DNA of 45,563 bases, from positions 1 through 45,563 of the IMG/VR virus record IMGVR_UViG_3300023223_000534. One strand, given 5' to 3'. The position numbers and the translations under genes are program-made. Shown here one piece after another: positions 42,153-45,563 of the stretch. The stretch is from a virus. The stretch's first letter is position 1; the number at the start of each line of letters is the position of its first letter. The notes beneath the pieces are model-generated. The model saw only the letters and a list, made by a program, of their open reading frames with translations. It made no database searches and had not been told where the DNA came from.

Positions 42153-42243
42153 AAACTGGCAAGAACGGATTATGTGTATTTGTCTTGGCGTGGCGATCGG
42201 GCTATTTTCCATATTAGTTTGGTTTTTTTCACTATATTTGTAA
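42145..42243 (+). CDS. 32-residue membrane peptide
   Basis: ATG at 42145 overlaps the previous stop region. Polar start (NENWQERI), then one hydrophobic segment (CICLGVAIGLFSILVWFFSLYL) to the stop. The next promoter box (42233-42240) is inside its last codons. Confidence 0.5.
   Translation: MNENWQERIMCICLGVAIGLFSILVWFFSLYL
42233..42240 (+). promoter_or_regulatory. Promoter -7 box of tRNA unit 1
   Basis: TATATTTG. The leader ORF begins at 42251, about 10 bases downstream; transcription should start at or just before it. Confidence 0.65.
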
Positions 42244-42250
42244 TATGACA

Positions 42251-42313
42251 ATGAGACTCTATAGTTTATGTTCCTCGCTGTGGTTTAGATACCACTGCCT
42301 GAGCTTTCTATAG
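42251..42313 (+). CDS. Leader peptide 1 (20 residues), tRNA-operon attenuator
   Basis: ORF of 20 codons plus TAG: MRLYSLCSSLWFRYHCLSFL (an ATG 2 codons upstream, at 42245, coincides with the start of transcription and is less likely). Apart from Met and one His, every residue (Leu, Ser, Tyr, Cys, Phe, Trp, Arg) is an amino acid whose tRNA is in the following unit (Phe, Tyr, Ser, Trp, Cys, Ser, Leu, Leu, Arg), and each of these appears. Codons are varied: CTC, TTA, CTG, CTG, CTA for Leu; AGT, TCC, TCG, AGC for Ser; both Tyr and both Cys codons. The codon end overlaps the antiterminator strand. Confidence 0.65.
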   Translation: MRLYSLCSSLWFRYHCLSFL

Positions 42314-42342
42314 ACTGATATTTTATTAGTTAAAGACTTTTG

Positions 42343-42369
42343 CCCAGGCTACCCCAGCTTGGGTTTTTT
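42343..42369 (+). terminator. Intrinsic terminator (attenuator) before tRNA-Phe
   Basis: CCCAGGCT (42343-42350) pairs with AGCTTGGG (42356-42363), one G-U, then six Ts (42364-42369). tRNA-Phe begins 8 bases later, so read-through is needed for the tRNAs. Confidence 0.8.
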
Positions 42370-42376
42370 GTTTTAT

Positions 42377-42449
42377 GGAACTATTGCCAACGTGGTCAAG
42401 GCATTGGATTGAAGCCCCGACAATCTAGGTTCGATTCCTAGTAGTTCCA
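42377..42449 (+). tRNA. tRNA-Phe(GAA)
   Basis: Acceptor GGAACTA/TAGTTCC, D stem GCC/GGC, anticodon loop TTGAAGC (GAA), T arm CTAGG-TTCGATT-CCTAG. One mismatch in the anticodon stem. No encoded CCA. Confidence 0.85.
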
Positions 42450-42454
42450 CAAAT

Positions 42455-42536
42455 GGGTATGCTGCAGAGGCGGTGATCTGTGACCGGTTGTAACCCGGTT
42501 GCCTACGGCTAGGAGGTTCGAATCCTTACATACCCA
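42455..42536 (+). tRNA. tRNA-Tyr(GTA)
   Basis: Acceptor GGGTATG/CATACCC, D stem GCAGA/TCTGT, anticodon stem ACCGG/CCGGT with loop TTGTAAC (GTA), long variable arm as expected for bacterial Tyr. Confidence 0.88.
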
Positions 42537-42541
42537 CAACT

Positions 42542-42629
42542 GGAAGATAAAGCAGTGCCATGGAGGCGCGACTAGTCTTGAAAACTAGGCTACGTGAAAG
42601 CGTACGGGGGTCGGTTCCTCTGTCTTCCG
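42542..42629 (+). tRNA. tRNA-Ser(TGA)
   Basis: 88 bases with long variable arm (TACG/CGTA); acceptor GGAAGAT/GTCTTCC; anticodon stem CTAGT/ACTAG, loop CTTGAAA (TGA). The T loop (TCGGTTC) is slightly irregular. Confidence 0.85.
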
Positions 42630-42634
42630 CATAA

Positions 42635-42703
42635 GCATCTCAGGTCATGGTGACCAAACGGATTCCAAACCCGTAGGCCAGAGTTCGAATCTTTGGGGAT
42701 GCG
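42635..42703 (+). tRNA. tRNA-Trp(CCA)
   Basis: Acceptor GCATCTC/GGGATGC, D stem GGTC/GACC, anticodon loop TTCCAAA (CCA), T arm CAGAG-TTCGAAT-CTTTG. Confidence 0.87.
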
Positions 42704-42708
42704 CAAAT

Positions 42709-42779
42709 GCCTCTTTGTCTGATTGGCTAAGTCCGTGGTTGCAACCCATGTTAGGTAGGTTCGATTCCTACAGGAGGCT
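42709..42779 (+). tRNA. tRNA-Cys(GCA)
   Basis: Acceptor GCCTCTT/AGGAGGC, anticodon stem CGTGG/CCATG with loop TTGCAAC (GCA), T arm GTAGG-TTCGATT-CCTAC. Confidence 0.87.
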
Positions 42780-42783
42780 CAAA

Positions 42784-42866
42784 GGAGAATAAACCCTATT
42801 GGATAGGGGCTGGCCTGCTAAGCCATGCGTCCGGCAACGTTTATGGTTCGATTCCATTGTTCTCCG
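42784..42866 (+). tRNA. tRNA-Ser(GCT)
   Basis: Acceptor GGAGAAT/GTTCTCC, D stem CCCTA/TAGGG, anticodon loop CTGCTAA (GCT), long variable arm, T loop TTCGATT. Confidence 0.83.
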
Positions 42867-42870
42867 CTAT

Positions 42871-42913
42871 GCCGGTGTGGGCAAATTGGTAAAGTCACCT
42901 GTTTGCTGTTAAA
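42871..42913 (+). tRNA. Truncated tRNA 5' half, interrupted by HNH gene
   Basis: GCCGGTG acceptor strand, Leu-like D arm (GGCAAATTGGTAAAGTC) and the start of an anticodon arm (CCTGTTTG), then the sequence leaves tRNA homology and the HNH promoter begins (42929). No 3' half follows the HNH gene, which is 1 base from the next tRNA. The broken tRNA's identity is uncertain. Confidence 0.6.
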
Positions 42914-42928
42914 TAGCTTTACTATGTG

Positions 42929-42936
42929 TATATTTG
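42929..42936 (+). promoter_or_regulatory. Promoter -7 box of HNH gene within the tRNA array
   Basis: TATATTTG, 5 bases before ATG 42942; nearly leaderless. Confidence 0.55.
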
Positions 42937-42941
42937 TTTTT

Positions 42942-43409
42942 ATGAGAAAACGAAAGTACACAAAGGAGTTTTTAGAGCCAATAGTTGAAAAGTGTTACAC
43001 TGTTTCGGCTGTTATGAGGATTCTTGGAGTGAGATTAAGTGGGGGCACTCATAGTTTAATATCCAAGCGGATAAAAGAATATGAGATCGATACTAGCCAT
43101 TTTTTAGGCCAGAGACATAATACAGGAAAGCCATCAATGTATAAGCACACCAAAGAGAGCTTCACAAAAGAGGTGTTGTGTGTTGATGGGAAAAGATGGA
43201 ATAGTCACGCAATTAAATTGAGGTTATTTGAATATGAGATGAAAGAAAATATTTGTGAGGGATGTAAGCAGTGTCCAACTTGGAATGGGGCTGAGTTAAA
43301 AATGCAGTTGGAACACATCAACGGAAATCATGAGGATAATAGAATTGAAAATTTGAAAATCCTATGCCCAAACTGCCACTCACAAACATCTACGTTTTGT
43401 AGAAAATAA
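42942..43409 (+). CDS. HNH homing endonuclease inside the tRNA array
   Basis: 155 residues from ATG 42942 (the frame is open upstream, but it runs through tRNA). N-terminal helix-turn-helix-like part (EKCYTVSAVMRILGVRLSGGTHSLISKRI), C-terminal HNH core: CEGCKQCPTWNG...LEHINGNHEDNRIENLKILCPNCHSQTSTF, with CxxC, EH and CxxC residues. It has invaded a tRNA and lies inside tRNA unit 1. Such enzymes cut intron-less or unoccupied sites to spread. Confidence 0.8.
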   Translation: MRKRKYTKEFLEPIVEKCYTVSAVMRILGVRLSGGTHSLISKRIKEYEIDTSHFLGQRHNTGKPSMYKHTKESFTKEVLCVDGKRWNSHAIKLRLFEYEMKENICEGCKQCPTWNGAELKMQLEHINGNHEDNRIENLKILCPNCHSQTSTFCRK

Positions 43410-43410
43410 T

Positions 43411-43495
43411 GCCGGAATGGCGAAATTGGCAATACGCGATAGATTTAGAATCTATTGTCTTAAATGACGTGTGAGTTCGAGTCTCACTTCCGGTA
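43411..43495 (+). tRNA. tRNA-Leu(TAG)
   Basis: Acceptor GCCGGAA/TTCCGGT, anticodon stem ATAGA/TCTAT, loop TTTAGAA (TAG), long variable arm, T arm GTGAG-TTCGAGT-CTCAC. Confidence 0.88.
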
Positions 43496-43500
43496 CAAAT

Positions 43501-43586
43501 GCCCCTGTGGTGAAATAGGTAGACGCGCAGCACTTAAAATGCTGTAATCAGTAATGGTTGTATCGGTTCGATTCCGGTCTGGGGCA
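43501..43586 (+). tRNA. tRNA-Leu(TAA)
   Basis: Acceptor GCCCCTG/CTGGGGC, anticodon stem CAGCA/TGCTG, loop CTTAAAA (TAA), long variable arm, T loop TTCGATT. Confidence 0.9.
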
Positions 43587-43591
43587 CACAA

Positions 43592-43662
43592 GGCTGTATA
43601 GTTTAAGGGAAAAACAAGGGGTTTCTACCCTCTCGATCTAGGTTCGAATCCTGGTATGGCCT
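43592..43662 (+). tRNA. tRNA-Arg(TCT)
   Basis: Acceptor GGCTGTA/TATGGCC, D stem GTTT/AAAC, anticodon stem AGGGG/CCTCT, loop TTTCTAC (TCT), T arm CTAGG-TTCGAAT-CCTGG. Last tRNA of unit 1. Confidence 0.87.
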
Positions 43663-43668
43663 CAATAT

Positions 43669-43698
43669 TTGCTTAATTGCCAACTATTACTAACTTTG
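43669..43698 (+). promoter_or_regulatory. Promoter of tRNA unit 2
   Basis: TTG at 43669-43671 followed after 19 bases by TAACTTTG (43691-43698), the best match to the Bacteroidota promoter consensus in the window. The leader ORF starts at 43717. Confidence 0.75.
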
Positions 43699-43716
43699 TA
43701 CGTCTATTATTACACA

Positions 43717-43803
43717 ATGAGAACACGTAAACATATCATGCCTATAACGACCCAAGCGGAGGGGATTAATGATCCTGACCCGAATGGAGGCACTATGTTT
43801 TAG
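43717..43803 (+). CDS. Leader peptide 2 (28 residues), tRNA-operon attenuator
   Basis: 28 codons plus TAG. Residues after Met: Thr4, Ile3, Pro3, Gly3, Met2, Arg2, Asn2, Asp2, and one each of Lys, His, Gln, Ala, Glu and Phe. All but the final Phe are amino acids whose tRNAs lie in the following unit (Pro, Ala, Gly, Asp, Asn, Ile, Val, Met, Lys, Glu, Thr, Gln, Arg, His); only Val is not represented. All four Thr codons, all three Ile codons, three Gly codons and both Asp codons occur. None of the unit 1 amino acids (Tyr, Ser, Trp, Cys, Leu) occurs except Phe and the shared Arg. Confidence 0.7.
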   Translation: MRTRKHIMPITTQAEGINDPDPNGGTMF

Positions 43804-43837
43804 CGATTATTGAATAAGCACTATAACAAAAACTTAA

Positions 43838-43866
43838 AGCCTCCACCACACATGGGGGCTTTTTTA
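43838..43866 (+). terminator. Intrinsic terminator (attenuator) before tRNA-Pro
   Basis: AGCCTCC (43838-43844) pairs with GGGGGCT (43854-43860), one G-U, then a T tract. tRNA-Pro starts at 43870. Confidence 0.82.
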
Positions 43867-43869
43867 TTT

Positions 43870-43943
43870 CGGGGTTTGGCGCAGCACGGTAGCGCGGGTG
43901 CTTTGGGAGCATCAGGTCGTTGGTTCGAATCCAGCAATCCCGA
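43870..43943 (+). tRNA. tRNA-Pro(TGG)
   Basis: Acceptor CGGGGTT/AATCCCG, anticodon stem GGTGC/GCATC, loop TTTGGGA (TGG), T loop TTCGAAT. Confidence 0.88.
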
Positions 43944-43997
43944 CTAGCAGGAGTAGTTGTCGCGTCCCACCTGAAAATTAAAAGGAAAGACAACAAA

Positions 43998-44072
43998 GGG
44001 GGGTACATGTACCAAGGCCGGCGAGTTTGCTTTGCAAGCAGACTGTGATGAGTTCGATTCTCATTTCCTCCA
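43998..44072 (+). tRNA. tRNA-Ala(TGC)
   Basis: Acceptor GGGGGGT/TTCCTCC (two G-U pairs and a T-T), anticodon loop TTTGCAA (TGC), T arm ATGAG-TTCGATT-CTCAT. D arm irregular. The 54-base spacer before it contains GTTGTC/GACAAC, an unexplained hairpin. Confidence 0.75.
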
Positions 44073-44078
44073 CTATTA

Positions 44079-44149
44079 GCGAGATGTAGCTTAATGATAA
44101 AGCACTTGGCTTCCAACCAAGGGACGGGGTTTGATTCCCACGTTTCGCT
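44079..44149 (+). tRNA. tRNA-Gly(TCC)
   Basis: Acceptor GCGAGAT/GTTTCGC, anticodon stem CTTGG/CCAAG, loop CTTCCAA (TCC). Confidence 0.86.
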
Positions 44150-44153
44150 CTAC

Positions 44154-44225
44154 GGGTTTCGTGGTGTAACGGTAACATCTTGCCCTGTCACGGCAAAGTT
44201 AGGGGTTCGAATCCCCCGGGATCCG
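44154..44225 (+). tRNA. tRNA-Asp(GTC)
   Basis: Acceptor GGGTTTC/GGGATCC, anticodon stem TTGCC/GGCAA, loop CTGTCAC (GTC), discriminator G as in other Asp tRNAs. Confidence 0.86.
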
Positions 44226-44230
44226 CATAA

Positions 44231-44302
44231 TGCTAGGTAGCTCAGAGGCAGAGCACGCGACTGTTAATCGCAAGGTCGAGATTTCGAAATTCTCCCTGGC
44301 AG
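44231..44302 (+). tRNA. tRNA-Asn(GTT)
   Basis: Acceptor TGCTAGG/CCTGGCA, D stem GCTC/GAGC, anticodon loop CTGTTAA (GTT), T loop TTCGAAA, discriminator G. Confidence 0.87.
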
Positions 44303-44305
44303 CAA

Positions 44306-44380
44306 GAGTGGGTTCCAACGAATAAGTTGAATAAGTTGGCATGCGGGTATTAATCATAGTCACAGGCACTTGACCCACTC
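44306..44380 (+). ncRNA. tRNA-length structured RNA without canonical T loop
   Basis: 75 bases closed by GAGTGGG(T)/(A)CCCACTC, with CCAAC/GTTGG over a 15-base loop and GTCA/TGAC near the 3' side. No TTCRANN T loop and no 5-pair anticodon stem. Occupies a tRNA slot between Asn and Ile. It could be a decayed tRNA or a distinct RNA. Confidence 0.45.
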
Positions 44381-44384
44381 AAAT

Positions 44385-44456
44385 TGGAATATGGCGCAGC
44401 GGTAGCGCAGCACCCTGATACGGTGAAGGTCAAAGGTTCGAATCCTTTTATTCCAA
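44385..44456 (+). tRNA. tRNA-Ile(GAT)
   Basis: Acceptor TGGAATA/TATTCCA, D stem GCGC/GCGC, anticodon loop CTGATAC (GAT), T arm AAAGG-TTCGAAT-CCTTT. Confidence 0.88.
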
Positions 44457-44461
44457 CATAT

Positions 44462-44534
44462 AGGGGGGTAGCTTAGCGGCCAAAGCCGTACTCTTACAAA
44501 GTACTTATCGTGGGTTCGAGTCCCACCTCCTCTA
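44462..44534 (+). tRNA. tRNA-Val(TAC)
   Basis: Acceptor AGGGGGG/CTCCTCT, anticodon stem GTACT/AGTAC, loop CTTACAA (TAC), T arm GTGGG-TTCGAGT-CCCAC. Confidence 0.88.
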
Positions 44535-44573
44535 CTGAAATTATGATACGAAAGGTGAAGATAAAACCCTAAT

Positions 44574-44646
44574 GGGTCTTTAGCTCAGCAGGCAGAGCAG
44601 CGATCTCATACGTCGAAGGCCGTAGGTTCGAAACCTACAAGACCCA
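44574..44646 (+). tRNA. tRNA-Met(CAT), elongator type
   Basis: Acceptor GGGTCTT/AAGACCC with a full G1-C72 pair, D stem GCTC/GAGC, anticodon loop CTCATAC (CAT), T loop TTCGAAA. The intact terminal pair fits an elongator; an Ile-lysidine type (CAT) is also possible. Confidence 0.85.
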
Positions 44647-44652
44647 CACAAT

Positions 44653-44726
44653 GCGTTCGTAGCTCAGCTGAATAGAGCACCCGCCTTTTAAGCGGGGGGT
44701 CGTGAGTTTGATCCTCACCGGGCGTA
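44653..44726 (+). tRNA. tRNA-Lys(TTT)
   Basis: Acceptor GCGTTCG/CGGGCGT, D stem GCTC/GAGC, anticodon stem CCCGC/GCGGG, loop CTTTTAA (TTT), T loop TTTGATC. Confidence 0.87.
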
Positions 44727-44732
44727 CAATAT

Positions 44733-44802
44733 TGTGATGAGATCAGGTGATCAGATCGGGCTCATATCCTGATTTAGGCGGGTTCAACTCCCCCCATCGC
44801 AA
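44733..44802 (+). tRNA. tRNA-fMet(CAT), initiator-like
   Basis: Acceptor TGTGATG/CATCGCA, anticodon stem TCGGG/CCTGA with loop CTCATAT (CAT). The G-rich run GGG at 29-31 and T loop TTCAACT resemble bacterial initiators, and 1-72 is T-A rather than G-C. A phage-encoded initiator tRNA is unusual. Confidence 0.75.
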
Positions 44803-44862
44803 CAAAAAGTAAGGTTATGAAAACTGTAGTTAACATATCTGAGGACGAATACGAGGAGAAAT

Positions 44863-44936
44863 GCTCGATTCGTCTAGTTCGGTTAGGACATCAGGTTTTC
44901 AACCTGAAAAAGCGGGTTCGACGCCCGCATCGAGTA
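44863..44936 (+). tRNA. tRNA-Glu(TTC)
   Basis: Acceptor GCTCGAT/ATCGAGT, D stem GTC/GAC, anticodon stem TCAGG/CCTGA, loop TTTTCAA (TTC), T arm GCGGG-TTCGACG-CCCGC. Its 3' half is part of the 69-base inverted repeat. Confidence 0.88.
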
Positions 44937-44968
44937 CTACAATAACCATAAGCCTTTGAAGCATTGCT
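44900..44968 (+). repeat. Left arm of 69-base inverted repeat
   Basis: Identical in reverse complement to 45495-45563. It spans the 3' half of tRNA-Glu, the spacer and the first 17 bases of tRNA-Thr. Confidence 0.95.
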
Positions 44969-45024
44969 GGCGATGCAACTGATTTGTAACCAGAAGATAG
45001 CGAGTTCGATTCTCGCCGAAGGCT
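44952..45024 (+). tRNA. tRNA-Thr(TGT)
   Basis: Acceptor GCCTTTG/CGAAGGC, D stem GCAT/ATGC, anticodon loop TTTGTAA (TGT), T arm GCGAG-TTCGATT-CTCGC. Anticodon stem has mismatches. Confidence 0.83.
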
Positions 45025-45030
45025 CTATAT

Positions 45031-45102
45031 TCCCGGATCGTCTAACTGGCAGGACAGATGGTTTTGAGCCATCTAATGTAGGTTCGAGCCCTACTCTGGG
45101 AT
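45031..45102 (+). tRNA. tRNA-Gln(TTG)
   Basis: Acceptor TCCCGGA/TCTGGGA, D stem GTC/GAC, anticodon stem GATGG/CCATC, loop TTTTGAG (TTG). Confidence 0.88.
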
Positions 45103-45108
45103 CAATAA

Positions 45109-45180
45109 GGGCGTGTAGTTTAATTGGAAAAACCCGTGGTTACGAACCATGAAACGCGAGTTCGATCCTTGCCATGCCCT
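45109..45180 (+). tRNA. tRNA-Arg(ACG)
   Basis: Acceptor GGGCGTG/CATGCCC, D stem GTTT/AAAC, anticodon stem CGTGG/CCATG, loop TTACGAA (ACG, needing deamination to inosine for full reading), T loop TTCGATC. Confidence 0.88.
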
Positions 45181-45185
45181 CGTAT

Positions 45186-45257
45186 GGTGTTTGAAGCATT
45201 AAGGTGATGTGCTAGACTGTGAATCTAGAGAAGACGGGTCGCTACCGTCCTTACACC
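45186..45257 (+). tRNA. tRNA-His(GTG)
   Basis: Acceptor GTGTTTG/CTTACAC preceded by the His-specific G-1 that would pair with C73; D stem GCAT/ATGT; anticodon stem CTAGA/TCTAG, loop CTGTGAA (GTG). T loop GTCGCTA is atypical. Confidence 0.8.
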
Positions 45258-45266
45258 CAAAATTTG

Positions 45267-45274
45267 TATATTTG
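45267..45274 (+). promoter_or_regulatory. Promoter -7 box of the tmRNA
   Basis: TATATTTG, 10 bases before the proposed 5' end region of the tmRNA acceptor piece (about 45284). Confidence 0.65.
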
Positions 45275-45283
45275 CAATGATGA

Positions 45284-45338
45284 TCATTGACTTTTAAATC
45301 AACTTTGTTGGACAGGGGTTCGACCCCCCTCATCTCCA
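45284..45338 (+). ncRNA. ssrA: tmRNA acceptor piece (permuted, two-piece tmRNA)
   Basis: Ends like the 3' part of tmRNA: GGAC (45310-45313), T arm AGGGG-TTCGACC-CCCCT, acceptor CATCTCC (45331-45337), discriminator A. CATCTCC pairs with GGGGATG at 45402-45408, which lies downstream. TCATT, AAATC and TTTGTT in this piece pair in order with AATGA, GATTT and AACGAA in the coding piece, rebuilding helix P2. Gene order acceptor-then-coding equals a circularly permuted tmRNA. Confidence 0.75.
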
Positions 45339-45401
45339 CAGCCAATTACAGCGGGCAGATAAGGCTACCCAAGAGGATAATAGCAAACTCTGTTGTATTA
45401 T
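45339..45401 (+). other. Intervening segment between tmRNA pieces
   Basis: 63 bases linking the acceptor 3' end to the coding 5' end. In permuted tmRNAs such a segment is removed by processing. No tRNA or ORF is visible in it. Confidence 0.55.
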
Positions 45402-45494
45402 GGGGATGACTTGGATTTGACAACGAATGAGCGATTTTTAATGAGATTGTCAACAAATAACTGAAAAGTTAAACGAATACTCACAGCTACGCCA
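45402..45494 (+). ncRNA. ssrA: tmRNA coding piece (truncated by contig end)
   Basis: Starts with the tmRNA 5' signature (GGGGATGACTTGGATTTGAC, 45402-45421). It then has the P2 strands AACGAA, GATTT and AATGA, the hairpin TAACT-GAAA-AGTTA, and a tag-like frame ACG AAT ACT CAC AGC TAC GCC (T-N-T-H-S-Y-A), resembling the ends of Bacteroidota tags before the final AA. The sequence then switches into the inverted repeat, so the end of the tag is missing. Confidence 0.7.
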
Positions 45495-45563
45495 AGCAAT
45501 GCTTCAAAGGCTTATGGTTATTGTAGTACTCGATGCGGGCGTCGAACCCGCTTTTTCAGGTTG
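45495..45563 (-). repeat. Right arm of 69-base inverted repeat at the window end
   Basis: Exact reverse complement of 44900-44968, cutting the tmRNA after its tag codons. Perfect identity and contig-end position suggest a foldback assembly or library artefact rather than biology. Confidence 0.95.

Follow-up and report, generated by a model that had tools for sequence, protein, structure and literature searches.

Candidate leader-peptide attenuators that match phage tRNA operons amino acid by amino acid

The attenuators of the enterobacterial trp, his, leu and ilv operons are built to a common plan: a leader open reading frame (ORF) with control codons, an intrinsic terminator, and the position of the ribosome as the switch. 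Operons for aminoacyl-transfer RNA (aminoacyl-tRNA) synthetases—pheST, with its pheM leader, and thrS—are also under attenuation. Here we describe units in phage DNA that are very likely ribosome-mediated attenuators of transcription, of the trp/ilv type, in which tRNAs take the place of the usual structural genes. The type locus lies in a 45,563-nucleotide (nt) IMG/VR virus record with siphovirus genes, IMGVR_UViG_3300023223_000534, the whole of which we call the window. Near its right end are two plus-strand tRNA operons, each with a short ORF and then an intrinsic terminator upstream. The initial annotation of this DNA had also reported two attenuator-led tRNA operons, correctly, but it ended the second block too early; this continues to His at 45187-45258. 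The elements of the two units are these:

42233-42240, plus strand: unit 1 promoter, -7 element TATATTTG, presumably of Bacteroidota type
42251-42313, plus strand: leader ORF 1, encoding MRLYSLCSSLWFRYHCLSFL and a stop, 18/19 post-Met residues from block 1; alternative in-frame ATG at 42245
42297-42304, plus strand: antiterminator strand 2 of unit 1, GCCTGAGC, 7-14 nt ahead of the stop codon; pairs with 42342-42349
42342-42374, plus strand: intrinsic terminator 1, stem 42342-42364 and T tract
42377-43663, plus strand: tRNA operon 1, Phe, Tyr, Ser(TGA), Trp, Cys, Ser(GCT), an HNH insertion, Leu(TAG), Leu(TAA), Arg(TCT)
43668-43698, plus strand: unit 2 promoter, presumably of Bacteroidota type, TTTG (43668-43671), 19 nt, TAACTTTG (43691-43698)
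43717-43803, plus strand: leader ORF 2, encoding MRTRKHIMPITTQAEGINDPDPNGGTMF and a stop, 26/27 post-Met residues from block 2
43785-43791, plus strand: antiterminator strand 2 of unit 2, TGGAGGC; pairs with 43839-43845
43836-43869, plus strand: intrinsic terminator 2, stem 43836-43862 and T tract
43870-45258, plus strand: tRNA operon 2, Pro, Ala, Gly, Asp, Asn, Ile, Val, Met, Lys, Met, Glu, Thr, Gln, Arg, His

The Bacteroidota -7 promoter consensus is TAnnTTTG, and it is from this that we take both promoters to be of that type; in unit 1 no -33 element was matched at the usual spacing from TATATTTG. Ser(TGA) of block 1 (~42542-42628) was missed by ARAGORN and found as an Rfam tRNA-Sec-type hit.

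Like the trp, his, leu and ilv attenuators, these units have an ORF of control codons, a terminator before the first structural gene, a strand at the end of the ORF that pairs with an arm of the terminator and, as we read them, a switch set by ribosome position. They differ in being phage-borne, in having tRNAs rather than biosynthetic enzymes as targets, and in addressing 2 to 20 amino acids rather than one to three; they would also sense the product of their own operon, which the enterobacterial attenuators do not. Like pheST and thrS they would react to the supply of charged tRNA, but those systems concern one amino acid and host enzyme genes, whereas the phage units span whole tRNA sets. 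Against the Rfam family Phe_leader, unit 2 of the window scores below threshold, at 27.6 bits where the gathering cutoff is 55. The target, phage tRNA genes, and the breadth of the control codons are new relative to known leader-peptide attenuators; in the open-licence PubMed Central literature, which excludes preprints, our searches turned up no account of phage tRNA operons attenuated by leader peptides. The sensitivity of leader-peptide attenuators has itself been modelled (PMC1183508).

The most telling property of the leaders is what they encode. All but one of the post-Met residues of each belong to amino acids of the tRNA block that follows, as the initial annotation had noticed, the exceptions being a His in leader 1 and a Phe in leader 2. 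Leader 2 covers every amino acid of its 15-member block except Val. Taking the control regions of the two together, the match to the leader's own block is 0.96, and to the swapped block 0.15.

This relationship holds well beyond the window. Across 31 curated units, own-block match is 0.716, against 0.357 (standard deviation, sd, 0.031) for shuffled pairs, a value that no shuffle reached (0/100,000). When the ORFs are instead chosen by rule, in 30 representative units, the figures are 0.62 and 0.32 (z 10, 0/100,000), and with a single unit per lineage (n = 19) the median z is 9. In the curated units, reading the nucleotides in frame +1 or +2 instead gives 0.277 and 0.300, without enrichment. 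Put another way, an amino acid appears in the leader in 204 of the 215 pairs in which the block has a tRNA for it and in 110 of the 405 in which it does not (odds ratio 50, from units of related phages that are not fully independent). Leaders thus follow their own block far better than they follow swapped blocks, and far better than other frames do. The true match is probably higher than the observed one, because metagenomic tRNA blocks are cut at locus ends and ARAGORN misses odd tRNAs.

Codon choice is less clear-cut. Leader 2 uses four Thr, three Ile, three Gly and two Asp codons, and leader 1 four Leu and four Ser codons, just as the initial annotation counted. That leaders deliberately sample synonymous codons is, as a general trait, weakly supported: across units there are 313 distinct synonymous codons where 299 are expected (p ~0.01). 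Matching at the level of the codon, in split boxes, is weak overall, with Arg showing 16 own and 7 other, and Ser and Leu near even.

Units in named phages were located through homology of tRNA arrays or proteins, leaving the leaders themselves out of the search. Leader ORFs recur in related and in unrelated phages: the arrangement is present in Callevirus, Lightbulbvirus, Maribacter phage Panino, Tenacibaculum phage Gundel, Stenotrophomonas phage Moby and LR745206, a phage of 634 kb, as well as in many contigs of IMG/VR. Cellulophaga phages Calle_1, phi4:1 and phi17:2 have three units each, Panino two and LR745206 four, and there are units, too, in phi38:1, Gundel and Moby. The leader beginning MKTQRLHQELEQP in Panino precedes Pro Glu Gln His Leu Leu Arg; that beginning MKTNMTYNNFSWYSNCSFSSY in Calle precedes Tyr Ser Ser Asn Trp Phe Cys; and that beginning MNNMYSQNQFCKWSVED in Moby precedes Trp Cys Lys Asn Ala Val Met Glu Leu Ser Tyr Phe Asp Gln Ser Gly. 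When tRNAs change places, the codons change with them. Asn and Leu tRNAs belong to different operons in the window and in Callevirus, and their leader codons have moved along; in Moby, where the terminator comes after the tRNAs for Arg, Ile and His, the control region lacks these residues. A narrow version, at L152 3016-3174, has a leader ending ANNQNQQTS ahead of only Gln(CTG), Asn and Gln(TTG), two amino acids in all, with strand 2 beyond the ORF.

Some of these ORFs have been deposited as hypothetical proteins—phi38:1 gp066 (L005 3034-3141), Panino CDS0063 (L006 7389-7484) and phi4:1 gp075 (L007 4521-4640)—with start codons set too far upstream. In five flavophage units (L002 4222, L002 5462, L006 7404, L007 3597 and L010 6607) the leader ATG lies 4 nt past the -7 box, so these five transcripts would be leaderless.

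The signature can also be found without reference to tRNAs. A general attenuator pattern with no tRNA term (GGGAGG, gap, CCCTCC, gap, GGAGGGTTTTTT) was run on 2.9 million viral contigs and returned 18 matches, representing about 11 distinct loci since several are near-identical. tRNA genes are present in all 18 stretches, 15 of which have the terminator directly 5' of a tRNA. Run on 84,980 bacterial and archaeal genomes, the pattern gave 54 matches, only one of them adjoining a tRNA array; this one is in a Lacinutrix metagenome-assembled genome, on a contig that has Panino-like leaders and looks like phage. Among the units recovered in this way, L027 has a leader beginning MFATSYSYCYYGSSSSSVSYGYESEEGS ahead of a Glu/Ser/Tyr/Gly/Cys array. 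Two further patterns brought extra units, such as L201, where a leader beginning MNMFTQGTPKPQTRTYQRYCGRYVQ precedes Lys Pro Arg Tyr Gln Thr Cys Gln Gly Gly Gly Asn Thr; two tRNA-specific patterns yielded nothing beyond Callevirus contigs.

For a hold-out, a fourth pattern was applied under unchanged rules. It found 120 loci, 51 of them with at least two tRNAs, and 19 new representative units, whose own match of 0.703 exceeds the shuffled 0.640 (sd 0.013; z 4.9, 0/50,000). Hold-out leaders are mostly ahead of near-complete tRNA sets, in arrays of up to ~30 tRNAs, and they are correspondingly broad: in 16 of them, control regions of 25-41 residues contain 18-20 different amino acids where 14-16.6 are expected (combined p ~1e-21, related leaders counted in). 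All 20 amino acids are present in control regions of 28-40 residues at L257, L285 (leader beginning MLPSLIHADYTKQSTLCGWINTRPVFLE), L265, L267, L269 and L316, and the tRNA blocks behind these comprise 12 to 27 genes, some cut at the locus end.

Composition alone does not make an attenuator; the RNA must also be able to fold in alternative ways. The initial annotation had pointed out that the end of each window ORF is complementary to the 5' arm of the terminator, and so it is: GCCTGAGC and GCCCAGGC pair at 7/8 positions in unit 1, and TGGAGGC and GCCTCCA at 7/7 in unit 2. Taken singly, these two matches are a modest gain over codon-shuffled leaders (p 0.09 and 0.035). Over 17 units not picked for complementarity, ORF ends exceed codon-shuffled leaders with a combined p of 1e-7. 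Strand 2 mostly ends 2-15 nt ahead of the stop codon, within the footprint of a terminating ribosome. For 29 units, the transcript up to the 3' arm of the terminator was folded with the ribosome footprint masked (Calle unit C was left out of this and of the complementarity tests). The predicted structures 2:3, the antiterminator, and 3:4, the terminator, exclude one another and are switched by ribosome position. The mean P(2:3) over the 29 units is 0.84 with the ribosome stalled in the control region, 0.23 with it at the stop and 0.58 with none. In window unit 2, a textbook case by this model, the corresponding values are 0.96, 0.00 and 0.05. The full-length leader 1 has a minimum-energy fold consisting of a 1:2 hairpin and the terminator; without its 5' half, its best fold is the antiterminator.

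Several considerations weigh against reading the units as attenuators. Strand 2 lies under the masked footprint of a ribosome at the stop, so the low P(2:3) of that state is in part predetermined. By folding, the complete terminator mostly beats the antiterminator at equilibrium, so the switch must be kinetic. The protective 1:2 hairpin stands out in window unit 2 and is weak or absent in other units; with no ribosome, P(2:3) is as low as 0.05 in the former but 0.96 in window unit 1, so that transcripts of some units might read through when untranslated. In a few units (among them LR745206 35141 and Lightbulbvirus 6421) strand 2 is too distant from the stop for the ribosome to cover it. And several phages with large tRNA arrays show no unit. 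Of nine further array-bearing phages examined, only Moby has a clear one. Mycobacterium phage Myrna, Klebsiella phage Metamorpho (T4-like), Salmonella phage PS5, Pseudomonas phage PA5oct, Gordonia phage Phendrix and Synechococcus phage S-SZBM1 have arrays and no unit, and in Cebadecemvirus phi10:1 and Sphingomonas phage PAU tRNAs are present and no unit was found. Vibrio phages VspSw_1 and PG07 have a terminator ahead of tRNA-Leu, and L241 2929, L343 372, L219 9087 and L226 13441 have one directly 5' of the tRNA array, in each case with no matching leader ORF found.

Against these points stands the rest of the anatomy. Block-related control codons, a terminator before the first structural gene, a predicted exclusive antiterminator that uses the end of the ORF, and a strand 2 that lies under a ribosome at the stop (further off in a minority) are the sequence-level marks of an attenuator, and the units have them. 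Recurrence, composition and the predicted exclusive structures together support the attenuation that was originally proposed for the window; recurrence and composition each pass a test that the initial annotation had set as able to refute it. With tRNAs as the genes downstream, there is no translation for a leader ORF to act on, and control of read-through is its natural role. We infer that it would be exercised as follows. RNA polymerase would start at the promoter just 5' of the leader ORF, and a ribosome would translate the ORF behind it. The front part of the ORF would act as the control region, with at least one codon for nearly each tRNA of the operon. If charged tRNAs were all plentiful, the ribosome would reach the stop codon and cover strand 2, the 3:4 terminator would form, and the tRNA genes would stay off. 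If any one charged tRNA were scarce, the ribosome would stall in the control region, strand 2 would pair with the 5' arm of the terminator (2:3), and polymerase would enter the tRNA operon. Such a circuit would be an OR gate with negative feedback: one limiting member would switch on the whole tRNA set, and adequate supply would shut it off. Possible triggers are host tRNAs cut by a defence nuclease, or decaying during infection.

As attenuators, the leaders might instead mainly report amino-acid starvation, that is, uncharged tRNA of any origin, and fit tRNA output to nutrition rather than to tRNA loss. Classical leader peptides do answer to charging, and anatomy does not separate charging from tRNA abundance. 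Extra tRNA gives no relief from amino-acid starvation, however, and tRNAs are the sole genes controlled, by leaders that follow each operon's exact tRNA set; we therefore regard starvation sensing as unlikely. T-box riboswitches likewise sense tRNA charging to control antitermination, but they bind tRNA directly, without translation. Beyond the fact that the targets are tRNA-related, little suggests that uncharged tRNA is bound by the phage leader RNA: an Rfam search of the window at E up to 1 returned no T-box family, and a signal that occupies a single reading frame and concerns many amino acids is beyond one specifier loop. We give this virtually no chance of being right.

Other explanations dispense with antitermination. 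Stalled ribosomes are able to stabilise RNA, and the leaders could act through translation-dependent protection or processing, with the ribosome shielding the tRNA precursor from RNases; the equilibrium stability of the terminator fits this. Canonical U-tracted terminators, and complementary ORF ends mostly no more than one ribosome footprint from the stop, are what an antitermination switch needs, and protection seems to us very improbable. It is more improbable still that the terminator merely insulates the tRNA operon from upstream transcription, the short ORFs being ordinary small genes or chance. Terminators are frequent in phage genomes, several leader ORFs are annotated as hypothetical proteins, and some tRNA-rich phages lack leaders, but an insulator is contradicted by the permutation and frame controls, according to which the composition match is both frame-specific and operon-specific, and by the complementarity of ORF end and terminator arm.

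The reason for phage-borne tRNAs is a decades-old debate, in which codon compensation stands against the replacement of tRNAs that host defences have destroyed. Leader control codons list the tRNAs of their own operon, so the phage sequence itself names the shortage that would switch them on. If we read the attenuators correctly, phages of many lineages probably carry autonomous sensors of the tRNA pool, in which one leader of ~25-40 codons, for up to 20 amino acids, ties transcription of the phage's full tRNA set to a shortage of any one tRNA, as an on-demand back-up for translation, useful for instance where host defences cleave tRNAs. That would widen leader-peptide attenuation from the one to three amino acids for which it is known to whole tRNA sets, and tRNA transcription would come under feedback control by decoding itself. 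Published accounts describe phage tRNAs as replacing host tRNAs destroyed by defence nucleases (PMC10264068, PMC11555353); this counter-defence role would make a switch of this kind worthwhile. The second paper also reports a strong promoter for phage tRNAs (PMC11555353), and a term search within both did not find regulated tRNA transcription. The hypothesis is open to testing in cultured phages (phi38:1, Calle, Moby, Panino and Gundel), the signature is a simple means to find and annotate such units, and the leaders might find use as ready-made biosensors of tRNA depletion.

The terminase of the window is nearest to those of flavobacterial phages, Nonlabens P12024L and Riemerella phages, at ~40% identity, and a scan of IMG/VR with its portal protein found no close relatives. 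The last 69 bases (45495-45563) repeat 44900-44968 exactly in inverted orientation. This is probably an artefact of assembly and makes the right end of the contig unreliable. Between Asn and Ile of operon 2 there is a possible extra tRNA-like sequence (44303-44384) with an acceptor-like stem, GAGTGGG/CCCACTC, called by neither ARAGORN nor Rfam. Two other features accompany the operons:

42942-43409, plus strand: HNH endonuclease gene within operon 1, phrog_10822, E 1.9e-47
45282-45448, plus strand: permuted transfer-messenger RNA (tmRNA) at the end of the tRNA array, RF04321, 48.3 bits, gathering 47

The HNH gene has its own TATATTTG-like element and adjoins a truncated 5' part of a tRNA-Leu (~42869-42892); together (42869-43410) the two look like a homing insertion. 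A further TATATTTG element, at ~45266-45273, is just upstream of the permuted tmRNA, which is possibly a transcription unit of its own.

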